DNA of 64,000 nt from Bacteroidota bacterium (lineage in GTDB: Bacteria > Bacteroidota > Bacteroidia > Flavobacteriales_E > Vicingaceae): positions 3,195 through 67,194 of the forward strand of contig JACPDX010000012.1 of assembly GCA_016183805.1 (NCBI GenBank), given 5' to 3'. Shown here piece by piece: positions 2,422 to 37,372 of this stretch (positions within the stretch are counted from its first letter, which is position 1; the number at the start of each line of letters is the position of its first letter). Below the pieces are notes generated by a model. That model had not been told where the DNA came from, made no database searches, and saw nothing but the letters and a program-made list of their open reading frames with translations. The position numbers were made by a program, and so were the translations under genes.

Positions 2422-4374
2422 TTATTTCTTTTTACCTCTTGCTTGTTGTATAGTTTGAGCTTCTTTCATTTTTTGCTCCAATTTAGCTGCAAACCCTGAT
2501 TTTTTTACCGGCTTAGCTTTGTGTGATTCCAGTTTTGCCAATACTTTTTTCTCATCAACAATATATTCTTTAATAATCCATTGTTGAGCAATAGTAATAA
2601 CATTAGCAATTAAATAATAATAACTTAAACCAGCAGCATAACTGTTAAAGAAAAACAACATCATTACAGGCATCAAGTACATCATTATTTTCATTTGTTG
2701 GGCCATCATACCATCCATTCCGGCACCGGCAGTCATTTGGCTGTTTGCTTTGGTGTAAAAAATCATGGAAATTGCCATCAACAAAGTAAATAAACTTACG
2801 TGGTCGCCATAAAAAGGAATGTTAAAGGGTAATTGGTAAATAGAATCGTAAGTAGATAAATCTTCAGCCCACAAGAAACTTTTTTGTCGTAATTCGAACG
2901 TTGCAGGGAAAAACCGAAACAACGCAAATAAAATAGGCATCTGTATCAACATGGGGATACATCCCGCCAAAGGATTTACCCCTGTTTGACGGTAAAGCGA
3001 CATGGTGGCTTGTTGTAATTTCATTTTGTCGCTGCCAATTTTTTCTTTCAGGGCGTCAATCTGAGGTTTTAATACCCGCATTTTGGCACTGCTCAGGTAA
3101 GTTTTCCAGGTAATCGGAAAAAGCACCAATTTGATGATAAAAGTTAACAGCAGGATAATAATTCCAATCTGCATTCCAAAGCTGTTCAGGAAATTAAAAA
3201 CAGGGCGGATTAAAATGGCATTTACCCATCCAAAAATTCCCCAACCGTAATTCATTGTTTCGTCTAAACCGTAGCCAATTTCTTTAAACGTATCGTATTG
3301 GTTTGGTCCAAAATAAAATTGTAATTCGTGTTTTTGTTTGGCATCATTAGTGAAAGGTATTGATAAATTTGTAGCCATACCTTCAACATAATTTGGTGTT
3401 TTAAATTCAGGTATTTCAATGGTTTCAATGCTTGCATCAGTTTTGTCGAAAGGTTGCGATTTTGAAATAAGGGTAGAGTTAAAATATTGTTGTTTAAACA
3501 TGACCCAATCAACCGAAGCGATTAAGTTTTCTTTTTCATACTTCATTTCGTTGATGTAATCCACATCACCTTTGTTGTATTTGTAATAAATGGTACTAAT
3601 TTGTTGTTGATTTTTAACCGTTTTCTCCTGATTTGGGGTAAACATGCTCCAATTGATAAACAAGTTGGAATGTGGTGCCAATACTTCACCGAATCCTACC
3701 GTTTCTACATCAAAATCAACTAAATAAGAGCTTCCATGTAAAGTATAATTAAAAGCAAGGTATTCGTTTTTTGAATTTCCATAAAGTTTTAAAGTAAAGG
3801 TTTTTGCATCATTTCCTGAAACTTTAAATTCGGTATTGGTGGTTTCGAAAAATAAATTTTCGGTATTTATCGAACGAATAGAGTTTCCTCCGGTAATTCC
3901 GGGTAAGGTTAATTCAATATTAAAGCGAGAAGAATCTTCGTTAAATAAAATTAAAGGTGTTTGTTGATAGGTTTTAAATTCTTTTAGTTCGACAGAAGCA
4001 ATTCTACCACCTTGGTTAGAGAGGGTTATTTTTAACTTGTCGTTTTCAATAACAAAATGTTTTTTTTCTCCTTCCGAAGCGTTTGAAAAAGGACCGAAGA
4101 CTGCAAATTGTTCAATATTTTTTAGTGAATCGTTGTCTGCAACAGCAATACTATCAGTAACTATTGTAGAATCTATGACTGGTAAAACAGTTTCAGATAA
4201 AGTGGATTTGTTGTCTGTTTGTTCAACTTTAGCTTTTTCTTTAGCTAATAACTCCTTTTTTTTAGCAGCTATCTCTGCCTCAGATGGCTGTGTTACGTAG
4301 CTAAATATTAATAAAATAGCTCCTATAATTACTAATCCTATAATTGAATTTTTGTCTAATCCTTGTTTGCTCAT
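2422..4374 (-). CDS. yidC: Membrane protein insertase YidC, 650 aa
   Basis: YidC inserts and folds inner-membrane proteins, alone or with SecYEG. The N-terminal membrane anchor (GLVIIGAILLIFSYV, residues about 13-27) is followed by a long periplasmic domain (about 90-370) and by the conserved Oxa1 core from about 395: GIIILLLTFIIKLVLFPI, then the coiled cytoplasmic hairpin (MRVLKPQIDALKEKIG) and GVNPLAGCIPMLIQMPILFALF. The C-terminus is basic, as usual for ribosome contact. Length and domain order are normal for a Gram-negative YidC. It lies 30 bp downstream of pyrG, same strand, and is likely co-transcribed with it. Confidence 0.97.
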   Translation of the reverse strand: MSKQGLDKNSIIGLVIIGAILLIFSYVTQPSEAEIAAKKKELLAKEKAKVEQTDNKSTLSETVLPVIDSTIVTDSIAVADNDSLKNIEQFAVFGPFSNASEGEKKHFVIENDKLKITLSNQGGRIASVELKEFKTYQQTPLILFNEDSSRFNIELTLPGITGGNSIRSINTENLFFETTNTEFKVSGNDAKTFTLKLYGNSKNEYLAFNYTLHGSSYLVDFDVETVGFGEVLAPHSNLFINWSMFTPNQEKTVKNQQQISTIYYKYNKGDVDYINEMKYEKENLIASVDWVMFKQQYFNSTLISKSQPFDKTDASIETIEIPEFKTPNYVEGMATNLSIPFTNDAKQKHELQFYFGPNQYDTFKEIGYGLDETMNYGWGIFGWVNAILIRPVFNFLNSFGMQIGIIILLLTFIIKLVLFPITWKTYLSSAKMRVLKPQIDALKEKIGSDKMKLQQATMSLYRQTGVNPLAGCIPMLIQMPILFALFRFFPATFELRQKSFLWAEDLSTYDSIYQLPFNIPFYGDHVSLFTLLMAISMIFYTKANSQMTAGAGMDGMMAQQMKIMMYLMPVMMLFFFNSYAAGLSYYYLIANVITIAQQWIIKEYIVDEKKVLAKLESHKAKPVKKSGFAAKLEQKMKEAQTIQQARGKKK

Positions 4375-33050: not shown

Positions 33051-34829
33051 TTGGATTTAAAAAAAAATACATCTCTTATAAATGTTGAAATTCAGCAACA
33101 ACAAGAAATTCAGGATTTAATAAAACAATCGGAAGAAATACTTGCTACCCAATTTACAAAAGCTGTAGAATGTGCCGAACAGGCAAAAGAACTTGCTCAA
33201 AAACATTTTTTTACCAAAGAACTGGCAGATAGCTTAAAGCAGTTGTCGTTGTGTTATGCCTATATTTCTGATTATGGAAAGGTAATGCGTACAGCTTTAG
33301 AGGCGATGGATTTATACATAAGTTGTAACAATTATGGGGGAGAAGCCGAATGTTTAAATATTTTGGGTGGGGTTTATAATTTTTTACAAGATTATAACAA
33401 GCGTTTGGAGTGTAACCTTAAATGTTTAGTACTTAGAAAAAAAGCAAACGACGAAAAAGGTCAAATTACTACTTACAATAATATTGGCGATACTTATACC
33501 GTAATGCAGGATTATGAAAATGCATTAAAATATTTTAATATTTGTTTAACATTCGACTTAACCAATCGAATGAAAGCTATTGTTTATTATAATATTGGCG
33601 AGGTTAATTATTTTAAAAAAGAGTATAAAATTGCTCAAGAATTTATACAAAAAGGATTGGCATTTGGTATTGAAACCGACTATTGGCAAATTATTATTGC
33701 TGCCTACCAAATGCAAGCCAATATTTTGTTGCTCGATAAAAAGTACAACGAAGCCATAGAAATACTAACTAAAGCTTTTGAAATTTCTAAACTAAAAAAA
33801 TCGAAAGAAGATCAATATCCTTTGTTTGAGTTGTTTTCGAAAGCATATTCGGGGTTAAAAGATTATAAAAATGCATATCAATATTTAAATAAATACAATA
33901 ACCTTAAAAATGAGTTGCACAGTTTAAACAATGCCCAAAAACTCAAGAAAATTGAATTTGAACATCAGCTTCGAAGCTTAACTTCAGAAACCGATGAGAT
34001 AAAGAAAAAAAACACACAAATTGTTGCTGCATTTAAAAAAATTGAAATTCAGCGAAACGAAATTGAAAGTAAAAATATTGCGATAACCGATAGTATTCAT
34101 TATGCTAAACGTATTCAGTTTGCCATTTTACCTTCCGATAAAAAAGTGAAAACCCATTTAAAAAACTGTTTTGTTTTTTATCAGCCCAAAGACATTGTTA
34201 GCGGAGATTTTTATTGGGTAGAGCAGGTAAACGACGAAATTATTTTTTCGGTTATAGATTGCACCGGACATGGTGTGCCAGGTGCTTTTGTAAGTTTAAT
34301 AGCTTACAACATGATTAATAAAGTGGTGCTTGAAAATCAGATAACGAAGCCCGCAGAAATTTTAAATAAAATGGACGAATTGATGCAAAGTTTGTTTAAA
34401 AATTCGGAGGAAAATATTAGAGATGGGGTGGACATGGGAATCTGTTCTTACAATATAAAAACCAACGAACTTAATTTTGCCGGAGCTTTTCATTCGTTAT
34501 TTGTTTGTGAAGGTAATGAGTTAAACGAAATAAAAGGAAACAGAGAATCGATTGGCTTTTCTATTTATGAAAAGAAAAAGGATTTTGTAAATCATAAAAT
34601 AACGCTTAAAAAAGGGACTACTTTATATTTATGTACCGATGGGTTGCCCGATCAATTTGGAGGAATAAAAGGTAAAAAATTAAAGTGGAAAGGAGTAAAA
34701 GAAAAACTAATGGAATGGCATAAGCAACCTATTAGCCAACAAAAAAATGCCGTAAAAACATTTTTTAATGTTTGGAAAAACGACCTCGAACAATTGGACG
34801 ATGTTTGTATCATAGGCGTTAGAATATGA
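33051..34829 (+). CDS. TPR-domain SpoIIE/PP2C-type serine phosphatase, 592 aa
   Basis: N-terminal TPR repeats (about 20-290: ANDEKGQITTYNNIGDTYTVMQDY, then LDKKYNEAIEILTKAFEI), a coiled-coil linker (about 290-345, LRSLTSETDEIKKKN) and a SpoIIE phosphatase domain (about 350-592) with metal-binding motifs DIVSGDFYW, VIDCTGHGVPGAFVS and LCTDGLPDQF, ending QLDDVCIIGVRI. Such proteins regulate anti-sigma-factor antagonists or other phosphoproteins. The start is TTG with no in-frame ATG nearby; a TAATTTTA near-promoter is just upstream. The final ten codons and the DNA after them are duplicated at 37172-37282. Confidence 0.88.
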   Translation: MDLKKNTSLINVEIQQQQEIQDLIKQSEEILATQFTKAVECAEQAKELAQKHFFTKELADSLKQLSLCYAYISDYGKVMRTALEAMDLYISCNNYGGEAECLNILGGVYNFLQDYNKRLECNLKCLVLRKKANDEKGQITTYNNIGDTYTVMQDYENALKYFNICLTFDLTNRMKAIVYYNIGEVNYFKKEYKIAQEFIQKGLAFGIETDYWQIIIAAYQMQANILLLDKKYNEAIEILTKAFEISKLKKSKEDQYPLFELFSKAYSGLKDYKNAYQYLNKYNNLKNELHSLNNAQKLKKIEFEHQLRSLTSETDEIKKKNTQIVAAFKKIEIQRNEIESKNIAITDSIHYAKRIQFAILPSDKKVKTHLKNCFVFYQPKDIVSGDFYWVEQVNDEIIFSVIDCTGHGVPGAFVSLIAYNMINKVVLENQITKPAEILNKMDELMQSLFKNSEENIRDGVDMGICSYNIKTNELNFAGAFHSLFVCEGNELNEIKGNRESIGFSIYEKKKDFVNHKITLKKGTTLYLCTDGLPDQFGGIKGKKLKWKGVKEKLMEWHKQPISQQKNAVKTFFNVWKNDLEQLDDVCIIGVRI

Positions 34830-34883
34830 TGCGAAGTTTGCCCTGAGCGAAGCCGAATGGGTGTTATCGGTGTGAGAGTTTGA
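34797..34883 (+). repeat. Direct repeat, left copy: 3' end of the SpoIIE phosphatase gene and flank
   Basis: The first 34 nt (34797-34830), coding for DDVCIIGVRI and the stop, are identical to 37172-37205; similarity continues through AAGTTT.CCCTGAG and ends at GGTGTGAGAGTTTGA. The two copies bracket the HipBST-like module. The remainder of the 292-bp spacer (34884-35121) shows nothing recognisable. Confidence 0.85.
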
Positions 34884-35121
34884 TATAAAGAATAAACACC
34901 TTATCTGATTAGGCATAGAACACGAACTTGACCTACAGCCTAACTAAAAATCCATAAACAGTAGCCATAGCAGTCTAAAAAACAACGGTGGAAAAACAAC
35001 AAATATGGTTTTTTTAAAGTCTTTTTTCAAACTTCAAAACAAGCTTTTAGCCAATTAAATTTTAAAGTAAAGTGTTACTAAAAATCTCCTTGAAATTCTT
35101 TTATTTAGGGGGAAGATTTCT

Positions 35122-36090
35122 TTATTTTAATTCTAAAGCAGATGCTCTTTGTCTAATCAATTGAATGTATTGTTCCTTTAATTCATCATTTAAAAAACTT
35201 ATCTGAATTAGTTCTTCAAATTGATTTAATAGAGATCCATATTTTGAAAATATTTTCTCAGTTATGGTTGAAGCAATTTTCAAGTTGGTTGCAAGTGCAA
35301 TAAAATCCTTTTTTCTGATTTTATTTTTCTTACCGTTTAAATGTAATGCCATCTGTTCTATGTCGTATTTTCCCATTACCAAATTGCTTGAAATTAAATC
35401 ATAGGCAGGTGATAACCGATATTGATGGTCTTCATTCTTAATCATCGAGAAGTTCTTCAAGTGCAAATCAGAATTGCCGATTAAAAAAGAAAAAACTGAT
35501 ATATCGAAGAATGTAATTAAATCTATACCAGGTGCTGAAGAATACTTTGCAATAGTTTTTCCAACTTGTTCCATGGTACTGCTATCGTATTTGCTTCTGC
35601 CTGTACTTGGCACTTCCATTAACTGGCAAAAATCCTCCATTGGAATTTTCTTTCCTTTCACCCTATCAAATCTTTTTGTTACATAGGTCAATTGACCTGA
35701 TGTTATTCTTAATAATGAATGTGAAGCTGTTTTTATTCTTGCCAGTTCAGCTAAATGCATGGTTAAGTCTTCATTTTCGGGAAGCGATGGATACAATTCT
35801 GATTGCGGTTTTAAAATATATTGTCCCCACAGACCTACTATTGTTAATCTTGATTTTTTCGGATCGTTGGGATCTACGTGAAGATTCAATGATAATTTTG
35901 GCTGAACTCCAGGTATGGTTACACTTAGTTCCGTAATTTGTTTTGCCATTTCCATTAACTCCTTTTTACTCAATGAGAGTATTGGTGGTGTTTCTAAACC
36001 AAAAAACTGCTTACTGCATGGAGGATGAAAATCAATTTGACCATCACTCAATGGTTTATAACAATATAAACATTGCTTATTTGCTTTCAT
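35122..36090 (-). CDS. HipT-like serine/threonine kinase toxin (C-terminal HipA part), 322 aa
   Basis: The protein carries the HipA kinase core without the N-terminal subdomain. Motifs: a Cys/His cluster CLYC...FHPPC at 7-25 (possible Zn site), Gly-rich loop SVTIPGVQPKLS (56-67), ATP Lys in QYILKP (about 94), catalytic loop IGNSDLHLKNF (Asp208, Asn213) and metal-binding SPAYDLI (Asp231). HipA-family toxins phosphorylate aminoacyl-tRNA synthetases. Ser56 and Thr58 sit where HipA/HipT loops are autophosphorylated. Its ATG overlaps the end of the HipS-like gene by 14 nt, indicating coupled translation. Target unknown. Confidence 0.87.
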   Translation of the reverse strand: MKANKQCLYCYKPLSDGQIDFHPPCSKQFFGLETPPILSLSKKELMEMAKQITELSVTIPGVQPKLSLNLHVDPNDPKKSRLTIVGLWGQYILKPQSELYPSLPENEDLTMHLAELARIKTASHSLLRITSGQLTYVTKRFDRVKGKKIPMEDFCQLMEVPSTGRSKYDSSTMEQVGKTIAKYSSAPGIDLITFFDISVFSFLIGNSDLHLKNFSMIKNEDHQYRLSPAYDLISSNLVMGKYDIEQMALHLNGKKNKIRKKDFIALATNLKIASTITEKIFSKYGSLLNQFEELIQISFLNDELKEQYIQLIRQRASALELK

Positions 36091-36433
36091 TACTTTCTAT
36101 TCTTTTAATGCTAATCGCACCAATGCAGTTACCACAAACACTTAATAATAATTCCATTCTGTCTTTCTCATTCAACTTCCAATTCTTTAAAGCAACATTT
36201 AAAAGAAATCCTTCTGGAATTAATCCGTCAAAAAACGGGATTAAATTTTCTTCATTGCGATATGGTTCTTCACGAACCGGTAAGGTTTGACTTATCGGGC
36301 CGTGAATAGGATTTTTAATATACTCTTTATTGTATTCAAAAAAATATCCGTTCTTATTCTTATCATCGTTACCAATAATCTGATAAACCATACCAACTGT
36401 TGCATCGTGAAATTTTACTATCCCTTTTTTCAT
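36077..36433 (-). CDS. HipS-like protein (HipA N-terminal subdomain), 118 aa
   Basis: Matches the N-terminal (Couple_hipA) subdomain of HipA: VGMVYQIIGNDDKNKNGYFF, ISQTLPVREEPY, and NLIPFFDGLIPEGFLLNVALKNWKL. In tripartite HipBST systems this piece is a separate protein that acts as the antitoxin. It lies between the HipB-like and HipT-like genes in B-S-T order on the minus strand, overlapping the toxin start. The split looks ancestral rather than a recent frameshift, because the toxin has its own start codon and an extra Cys/His N-terminus. Confidence 0.82.
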   Translation of the reverse strand: MKKGIVKFHDATVGMVYQIIGNDDKNKNGYFFEYNKEYIKNPIHGPISQTLPVREEPYRNEENLIPFFDGLIPEGFLLNVALKNWKLNEKDRMELLLSVCGNCIGAISIKRIESNESK

Positions 36434-36570
36434 GTGTAGATATTTATTATTCGTTCATTTTTGTTGTTAATTAATGTACTCATGAGCTCATTTCGTTCGG
36501 TTGTTTTTTTATGTCAGATGGAATACGCCATATTCTCATTTCTGTTTGTATGCTATGGTATATGGCTATT

Positions 36571-37014
36571 TCATAATGTTTGAAGATTAATGTCAGCGAT
36601 TTCATTTTGTTTTACTTCAACGAATAAAGAGTCGTCTTTTTTTTCTTTCCATTCAAGTGCTTTTGGATTAGGAAGTACTTTCCAGGCAATGATATTGCTT
36701 TTTTCATCTCTAACTTCACTCATCAAAAATCCTACAACTTGTTTTTTATCTGTCTTTGTAATTGTAACCGCCTTATTGATAAAGGTGTACCAAATTTGCC
36801 ATGGATCATTTGCATTAACGTTGGGACCAAGATGAAAACCAAAAAAAGAAAGCACTTCATTTACCTTATCGAGACGTAATTTTGAACGACCTTGTTCCAA
36901 ATCACGAATAAAATGAATACCTAAGCCAGTCATTTCTGCCAGTTGTTCTTGTGTTAACTTTTGCTTTTCCCTGTGGTACTTAACAAAAGCTGCTATGTTG
37001 CTTATTGTTTTCAT
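36571..37014 (-). CDS. HipB-like antitoxin/regulator with XRE helix-turn-helix, 147 aa
   Basis: An XRE helix-turn-helix (about 8-62: YHREKQKLTQEQLAEMTGLG, HFIRDLEQGRSKLRLDKVNEVL) precedes an 80-residue C-terminal extension with no recognised domain. It should bind DNA as a dimer and repress its own operon with the HipS/HipT proteins. Two 17-bp palindromes of one type lie directly upstream (37015-37031 and 37054-37070), the proximal one abutting the ATG. A 137-bp gap follows before hipS, with a GCCATAT/ATATGGC inverted repeat. Confidence 0.85.
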   Translation of the reverse strand: MKTISNIAAFVKYHREKQKLTQEQLAEMTGLGIHFIRDLEQGRSKLRLDKVNEVLSFFGFHLGPNVNANDPWQIWYTFINKAVTITKTDKKQVVGFLMSEVRDEKSNIIAWKVLPNPKALEWKEKKDDSLFVEVKQNEIADINLQTL

Positions 37015-37031
37015 TATACAAAAATTGTATA
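37015..37031. promoter_or_regulatory. Proximal operator-like palindrome of the HipBST module
   Basis: TATACAAAAATTGTATA, TATACA/TGTATA half sites, immediately upstream of the HipB-like ATG. Same layout as the distal copy at 37054-37070 (39-bp spacing). Confidence 0.7.
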
Positions 37032-37053
37032 TTATTTTAGTTAATCGGTATTA

Positions 37054-37070
37054 TATACAAAAATAGTATA
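37054..37070. promoter_or_regulatory. Distal operator-like palindrome containing the promoter element
   Basis: TATACAAAAATAGTATA, TATAC/GTATA half sites. On the minus strand it contains TATTTTTG (37065-37058), a perfect TAnnTTTG element, so a repressor bound here would block the promoter. Confidence 0.7.
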
Positions 37071-37171
37071 AATTATTAATATATTGAATAATTATACGAA
37101 ATTTACACATTACTCTGACAGAAACTGTTTCAAATCAAACTTTTCGGATTTAAGATTTGCTGGAAACTTTA

Positions 37172-37282
37172 GACGATGTTTGTATCATAGGCGTTAGAAT
37201 ATGATACAAAGTTTACCCTGAGTAATGTCTCACTGAGCATGTCGAAGTGTTACCGAATGGTATTACCGGTGTGAGAGTTTGA
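37172..37282 (+). repeat. Direct repeat, right copy: duplicated 3' end of the SpoIIE phosphatase gene
   Basis: GACGATGTTTGTATCATAGG and the following 14 nt match 34797-34830 exactly. The upstream codons read D-L-L-E-T-L before DDVCIIGVRI, similar but not identical to the intact gene (NDLEQL), with an in-frame stop just before. An extra 24 nt (CTCACTGAGCATGTCGAAGTG type palindromic word) separates the two conserved blocks. It may be the remnant of a tandem paralogue or a duplicated insertion target. Confidence 0.82.
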
Positions 37283-37372
37283 CGGAGTCAATTCTCGTGT
37301 AAGTCAAAATATTGAAATATTTATTTTTTTACCTATTTATAGTATTACTTATGTAGCTGCCATAACGTTTTG

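Follow-up and report, generated by a model that had tools for sequence, protein, structure and literature searches.

The stretch of DNA considered here (64,000 nt, positions 3,195 to 67,194 of contig JACPDX010000012.1, assembly GCA_016183805.1, a member of the Vicingaceae; hereafter the window) carries a HipBST-type toxin-antitoxin module directly after a SpoIIE-type serine phosphatase gene, and the 3′ end of that gene recurs exactly on the far side of the module. The arrangement invites the view that the module duplicated its target when it inserted. We think it likely, instead, that two separate things adjoin at this place, an ordinary HipBST operon and two members of a family of repeats located at SpoIIE 3′ ends, and that the flanks were not made by insertion of HipBST. 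The point of interest would then be the insert that spans the stop codon and restores the protein tail, HipBST being ordinary.

The repeated gene end and its family

The last codons of the phosphatase (GAC GAT GTT TGT ATC ATA GGC GTT AGA ATA TGA, encoding DDVCIIGVRI*; 34797-34829) recur at 37172-37204 with zero mismatches. The exact match between the left and right copies is 34 nt long (34797-34830 and 37172-37205), and it extends to 63 nt at 87% identity. No match of this kind is expected in shuffled sequence, an excess explained by the fact that a large gene family conserves this end. The exact repeat on either side of the module, described in an earlier note on this DNA, is therefore real, and so is the degenerate similarity beyond it, which is more structured than was claimed. 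After inserts of unequal length the similarity resumes, at 92%, with GGTGTTATCGGTGTGAGAGTTTGA (34860-34883) on the left and GGTATTACCGGTGTGAGAGTTTGA (37259-37282) on the right, each being a shorter second tail in the same sense as the first. The middle of the right copy (37222-37258) also holds a second core, TCACTGAGCATGTCGAAGTG, resembling repetitive extragenic palindromic (REP) elements, as would result from insertion of one repeat into another.

DDVCIIGVRI* is the conserved C-terminal end of about 30 SpoIIE-type paralogues in the source genome (G000). The genome gives 33 SpoIIE-domain matches, some being pieces of one gene, which corresponds to about 25-30 phosphatase genes in 3.5 Mb, often in tandem; a literature search returned no account of this large expansion in G000 and its relatives. 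A pattern built on the last eleven codons finds 18 tails, 15 of which close open frames of 292 codons or more, while C69:51 runs off its contig. The two tails that lack a gene have short open frames, of 6 codons in the right copy and of 11 codons in C67:778 (GSNEQVDDVCIIGVRV*), and the latter indicates that a SpoIIE tail can occur without its gene. The C67 orphan (L044, 757-810) is about 16 codons long, lies between unrelated genes and is followed by sequence similar to that after the second tail of the left copy. Tandem SpoIIE genes have their tails 2118 nt apart on C5 and 5446 nt apart on C69; the two tails in the window are 2375 nt apart. The SpoIIE gene at C69:5497-5529 (L144) has lost the usual stop codon (ATATGT TGA) and ends in GVRIC*.

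The repeat was surveyed in 46 genomes of the family, the same ones that a scan of the order covered, with a pattern of two degenerate tails 20-50 nt apart. It gave 23 matches in 11 of the 46 genomes, and the same pattern reversed, used as a control, gave none. The pattern demands a SpoIIE tail and would miss related inserts at other genes, and the right copy is outside the 23 matches because its middle is too long for this spacing. In every match, nested copies and contig edges excepted, the tail is preceded by an open frame of at least 459 codons. The first tail is in frame and closed by a stop codon in 20 of 20 units, and the sequence after the stop is conserved too. The same tail-REP-tail arrangement is found on C91, C101 and C69 of the source genome and on C34 of the congener G001.

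The clearest unit, on contig C157 of G055, reads GAT GAT GTT TGT [GTC ATA GGC GTT AGA ATA TGA TACAAAGTTTATCCTGAGCTTGTCGAAGGAC] GTA ATT GGT GTA AGA ATT TAA, and without the bracketed unit an ordinary SpoIIE tail is left. Each composite looks like a clean insertion within the last codons, by which the C-terminus and stop codon are supplied again and the old tail is shifted downstream. Units also form arrays, nested in G001:C34, where three tails follow one another, and tandem with a 59-bp period in G051:C65 and C133. The latter two arrays (L122 and L126) start at the last six SpoIIE codons and repeat the tail together with the REP-like segment. On G005:C1 (L060) there are again three consecutive tails, the newest of which alters the protein end to DDVCVIGICI* and has another palindrome, ATAGGGATTTGC..GCAAATTCCTAT. 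Near-identical units occur behind divergent paralogues and in different genera, which implies that the unit has moved or been copied between paralogues. A limited literature search gave no description of repeats at SpoIIE gene ends.

Most units can form a hairpin across the stop codon. The stem of the main type consists of the first tail and the bases after the stop, with 11 bp of the form TTTGYRTCATA...TATGAYRCAAA. Among 12 aligned copies, 97.7% of the hairpin cells are paired and three pairs have changed on both sides in a compensatory manner. None of 500 shuffles reached the covariation score, and pairing fell to 27-53% when the arms were shifted. These copies were picked by sequence type, and kinship among them may inflate the covariation counts; the covariation is good evidence for a real hairpin, though not independent proof. 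The types represented by G005, G051:C24 and G055:C75 have a different stem over the stop codon, and that of G051:C65 has a weak one. The plus-strand terminator that had been proposed just outside the right copy was absent from a terminator scan near that copy.

The composites suggest the following course of events. A unit of roughly 50-60 nt would insert inside the last SpoIIE codons and supply the final codons (V/I-I-G-V-R/K-I/V) and a stop, usually with the hairpin across it, together with a REP-like segment (CCCTGAG..TCGAAGGG or CCTGTCCCGAACTTGATTCGGGA), leaving the old tail downstream. With a tail on either side, the unit could then spread to other SpoIIE genes by tail-tail recombination. 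The left unit of the window terminates the living phosphatase gene, and the right one is an orphan, most likely left over from a second SpoIIE gene or from an array, which the HipBST segment would have replaced or split. The contrary idea does without an element and attributes the hairpin and second tail to coding conservation and chance likeness. It explains why the first tail alone would match among paralogues, given its conservation at the protein level. The idea is hardly credible in view of the conserved post-stop sequence, the second tails within 20-50 nt (none in the control) and the covarying hairpin.

Origin of the two flanks

If a HipBST cassette had entered the phosphatase gene at its 3′ end, with its target duplicated in the process, as the earlier note proposed, the exact 34-nt direct repeat on both sides and the 92% likeness of the second tails would be accounted for. 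However, each flank has a better partner elsewhere than the other flank: the local alignment scores are 120 for right and C91, 113 for left and G001:C34, 110 for left and right, and 106 for left and C91. The middles differ in length and so do the sequences after the second tail, where CGRAGTYAATTCTCG is present in the right copy and C91 and missing from the left copy. Between the repeats there is no open reading frame for a transposase or integrase, the three Hip genes being the sole recognised genes there, and a SpoIIE tail or gene occurs in the available flanks of 0 of 80 related HipBST loci, many of them on short contigs. The 34-nt identity itself is less telling than it appears, as C69 carries the same 27 nt, GTTTGTATCATAGGCGTTAGAATATGA, as the first tail of both flanks. 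With the block being one of 18 such tails and both flanks being composites of a kind found across the family, insertion with target duplication is not supported and we regard it as very improbable; the flanks are probably two members of the repeat family, judging from these sequence comparisons.

Several points weigh against this reading. The scores that separate the flanks differ modestly (120 and 113 against 110), so that the conclusion rests on the whole pattern. The first tail is identical in both flanks, possibly through recent copying between them, yet C69 shares 27 nt of it. The genes on the OmpA side and the TruA side are not adjacent in the three congeners G001-G003, which thus offer no module-free locus for comparison. 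No enzyme was identified for the repeats, and the one Y1_Tnp gene of the genome has no such repeat in its flanks. Finally, the 60 nt upstream of the right tail resemble SpoIIE at chance level (153 of 1000 shuffles reach the score), which leaves an origin of the right copy from a lost gene unproven.

The right copy is most likely an orphaned 3′ end, left over either from a SpoIIE gene that was lost or from a repeat array that was split or replaced. The earlier suggestion of a tandem paralogue whose tail survives is thus possible, in view of the tandem SpoIIE pairs and the C67 orphan tail, and it remains unproven, with the bases upstream of the right tail at chance level and no body fragment in the interval. 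When the same 60 nt were compared with random pieces of the window, 352 of 3000 reached the score. A search with a SpoIIE 3′-end profile and alignment beside the right tail scored the 35-nt tail alone, and a translated SpoIIE search of 34884-37171 gave nothing convincing, with two matches at E about 0.7.

The other origin that our explanation allows is that HipBST landed in a composite array at the 3′ end of a single gene and displaced the older composite by 2.3 kb, so that a second gene never existed. Arrays of this kind are known from G001:C34, with its three consecutive tails, and from the 59-bp tandem units of G051:C65 and C133, and the interval holds no SpoIIE body fragment. On the other hand, displaced tails elsewhere begin with ATG.TTT or GTA.ATT, whereas the right copy retains the full GACGAT codons, and we consider this origin rather unlikely. 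Less likely still is an independent move, in which the composite on the right, acting as a small mobile repeat, would have reached its intergenic site without any gene. Near-identical units behind divergent paralogues and in different genera show the composite to be mobile in effect, but every other non-nested composite examined lies where a SpoIIE gene or a contig ends, and GACGATG, which consists of gene codons outside the unit, is present in the right copy.

The HipBST module and the layout of the locus

Judged from its sequence, the module is an ordinary HipBST of the type known from Legionella and the Bacteroidota. The earlier assignment agrees with the Pfam and NCBIfam matches and with the best solved matches of HipT, PDB 7vkb/8ezr (HipT of Legionella, E about 1e-54), and the three reading frames have the coordinates given for them, all on the minus strand (Table 1). 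HipA_C is found in HipT alone and Couple_hipA in HipS alone, as in a split HipA, and the catalytic and metal-binding motifs GN.D.HLKNFS and SPAYDL are invariant across six HipT sequences. The gene order is B-S-T, and among 80 relatives from genome contigs hipS is present in all 80 and hipB lies upstream in 78. The phosphatase in front of the module matches the SiaA-like NCBIfam model at 2e-58, under the cut-off of that model.

Table 1. Features of the locus (window coordinates)
Feature	Position	Strand	Remarks
TPR-SpoIIE (PP2C-type) serine phosphatase gene	33051..34829	+	Pfam SpoIIE 6.4e-17 and TPR; last codons and stop belong to left composite
Left composite	34797..34883	+	Tail 1 34797-34829 (DDVCIIGVRI*), REP-like insert, displaced tail 2 34860-34883 (...VIGVRV*)
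11-bp hairpin across stop codon, left copy	34804..34836	+	TTTGTATCATA / TATGATGCGAA, two G-U pairs
hipT-like toxin kinase	35122..36090	-	322 aa, no N-subdomain 1; HipA_C 1.9e-46
hipS-like antitoxin	36077..36433	-	118 aa, 14-nt overlap with hipT; Couple_hipA 1.2e-19; TIGR03071
hipB-like HTH protein	36571..37014	-	147 aa; HTH_3 9e-8; TIGR03070 couple_hipB 1e-18, just under cut-off
Two near-identical inverted repeats	37015..37070		TATACAAAAATTGTATA (37015), TATACAAAAATAGTATA (37054); candidate HipB operators, function inferred
Right composite, no gene	37172..37282	+	Tail 1 37172-37204, REP-like insert with longer middle, tail 2 37259-37282
Perfect 11-bp hairpin across stop codon, right copy	37179..37211	+	TTTGTATCATA / TATGATACAAA
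Post-tail stretch	37283..37297	+	CGGAGTCAATTCTCG; common to C91 composite and right copy, missing from left copy

HipBST homologues are widespread in the FCB group (PMC10653801). Like the Legionella pneumophila system (lpg2368-70) and its Bacteroidota homologues (PMC10653801, PMC9325769), the present one has the B-S-T order, a split HipA, a HipT of about 310-320 aa without N-subdomain 1 and inverted repeats upstream of hipB, such as have been described in Legionella (PMC10653801). By homology, HipB would probably repress its own promoter at the two inverted repeats and HipS would hold the HipT kinase inactive, while free HipT would phosphorylate a target and growth would stop. In contrast to known systems, hipB is longer here (147 aa) than in several relatives and is separated from hipS by 137 nt. 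This gap (36434-36570) contains a 32-nt stretch that is 87.5% like a site on C91 (L040:2323-2354).

A further difference concerns the P-loop of HipT (35895-35925, minus strand), in which a Thr aligns with S54 of Legionella HipT. In the 51 related Bacteroidota loci that could be scored, this residue is mostly Thr (31) or Ala (10), with Ser in 8 and Val and Gly in one each. Autophosphorylation of the P-loop serine does not inhibit Legionella HipT (PMC10653801), and it may be lost or altered in this HipT branch.

Relation to REP elements and meaning of the repeat

Like REP elements and their associated RAYT transposases (PMC3733652, PMC6006769), the SpoIIE-end units are short palindromes that lie close behind gene 3′ ends or overlap them, and they recur in the genome; some REPs also supply a stop codon (PMC3733652). 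They differ in being few per genome and found at one gene family, in restoring the C-terminal codons of the family while displacing the old tail, and in having no GTAG/CGTC tag and no cognate transposase that could be found. No constant tag was present at the stem foot in the 12-copy alignment, and a RAYT as the mover was rejected, as the sole Y1_Tnp gene is flanked by different repeats. As the tests for tag and transposase failed, the family is termed REP-like rather than REP. One spelling of the core, GTTTAYCYTGAG, was surveyed and occurs at 6 genome sites, 3 of them at SpoIIE-tail composites. The units share with Rickettsia palindromic elements and other intragenic REPs (PMC3733652) a palindromic repeat in frame within coding sequence. 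Unlike all of these, they sit at the extreme 3′ end, replace the tail rather than interrupt it, and were seen, within what was searched, only in paralogues of one family.

The present case corrects a tempting reading: a toxin-antitoxin module may be bordered by exact repeats that are not its insertion footprint. More tentatively, and with somewhat less than even confidence, we suggest a palindromic repeat family that is dedicated to the 3′ ends of a single expanded phosphatase family. It would insert within the last codons, restore the C-terminus, stop codon and hairpin, spread from one paralogue to another by tail recombination, and sometimes form arrays that trap genes such as HipBST. If this is true, the repeat would clearly exemplify an element, whether selfish or recombinational, that evades selection by returning the protein end it disrupts. 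The about 20 insertions would then be a natural series, the nested ones ordered in time, useful in this group for the study of how paralogues evolve, of gene conversion and of stop-codon hairpins.

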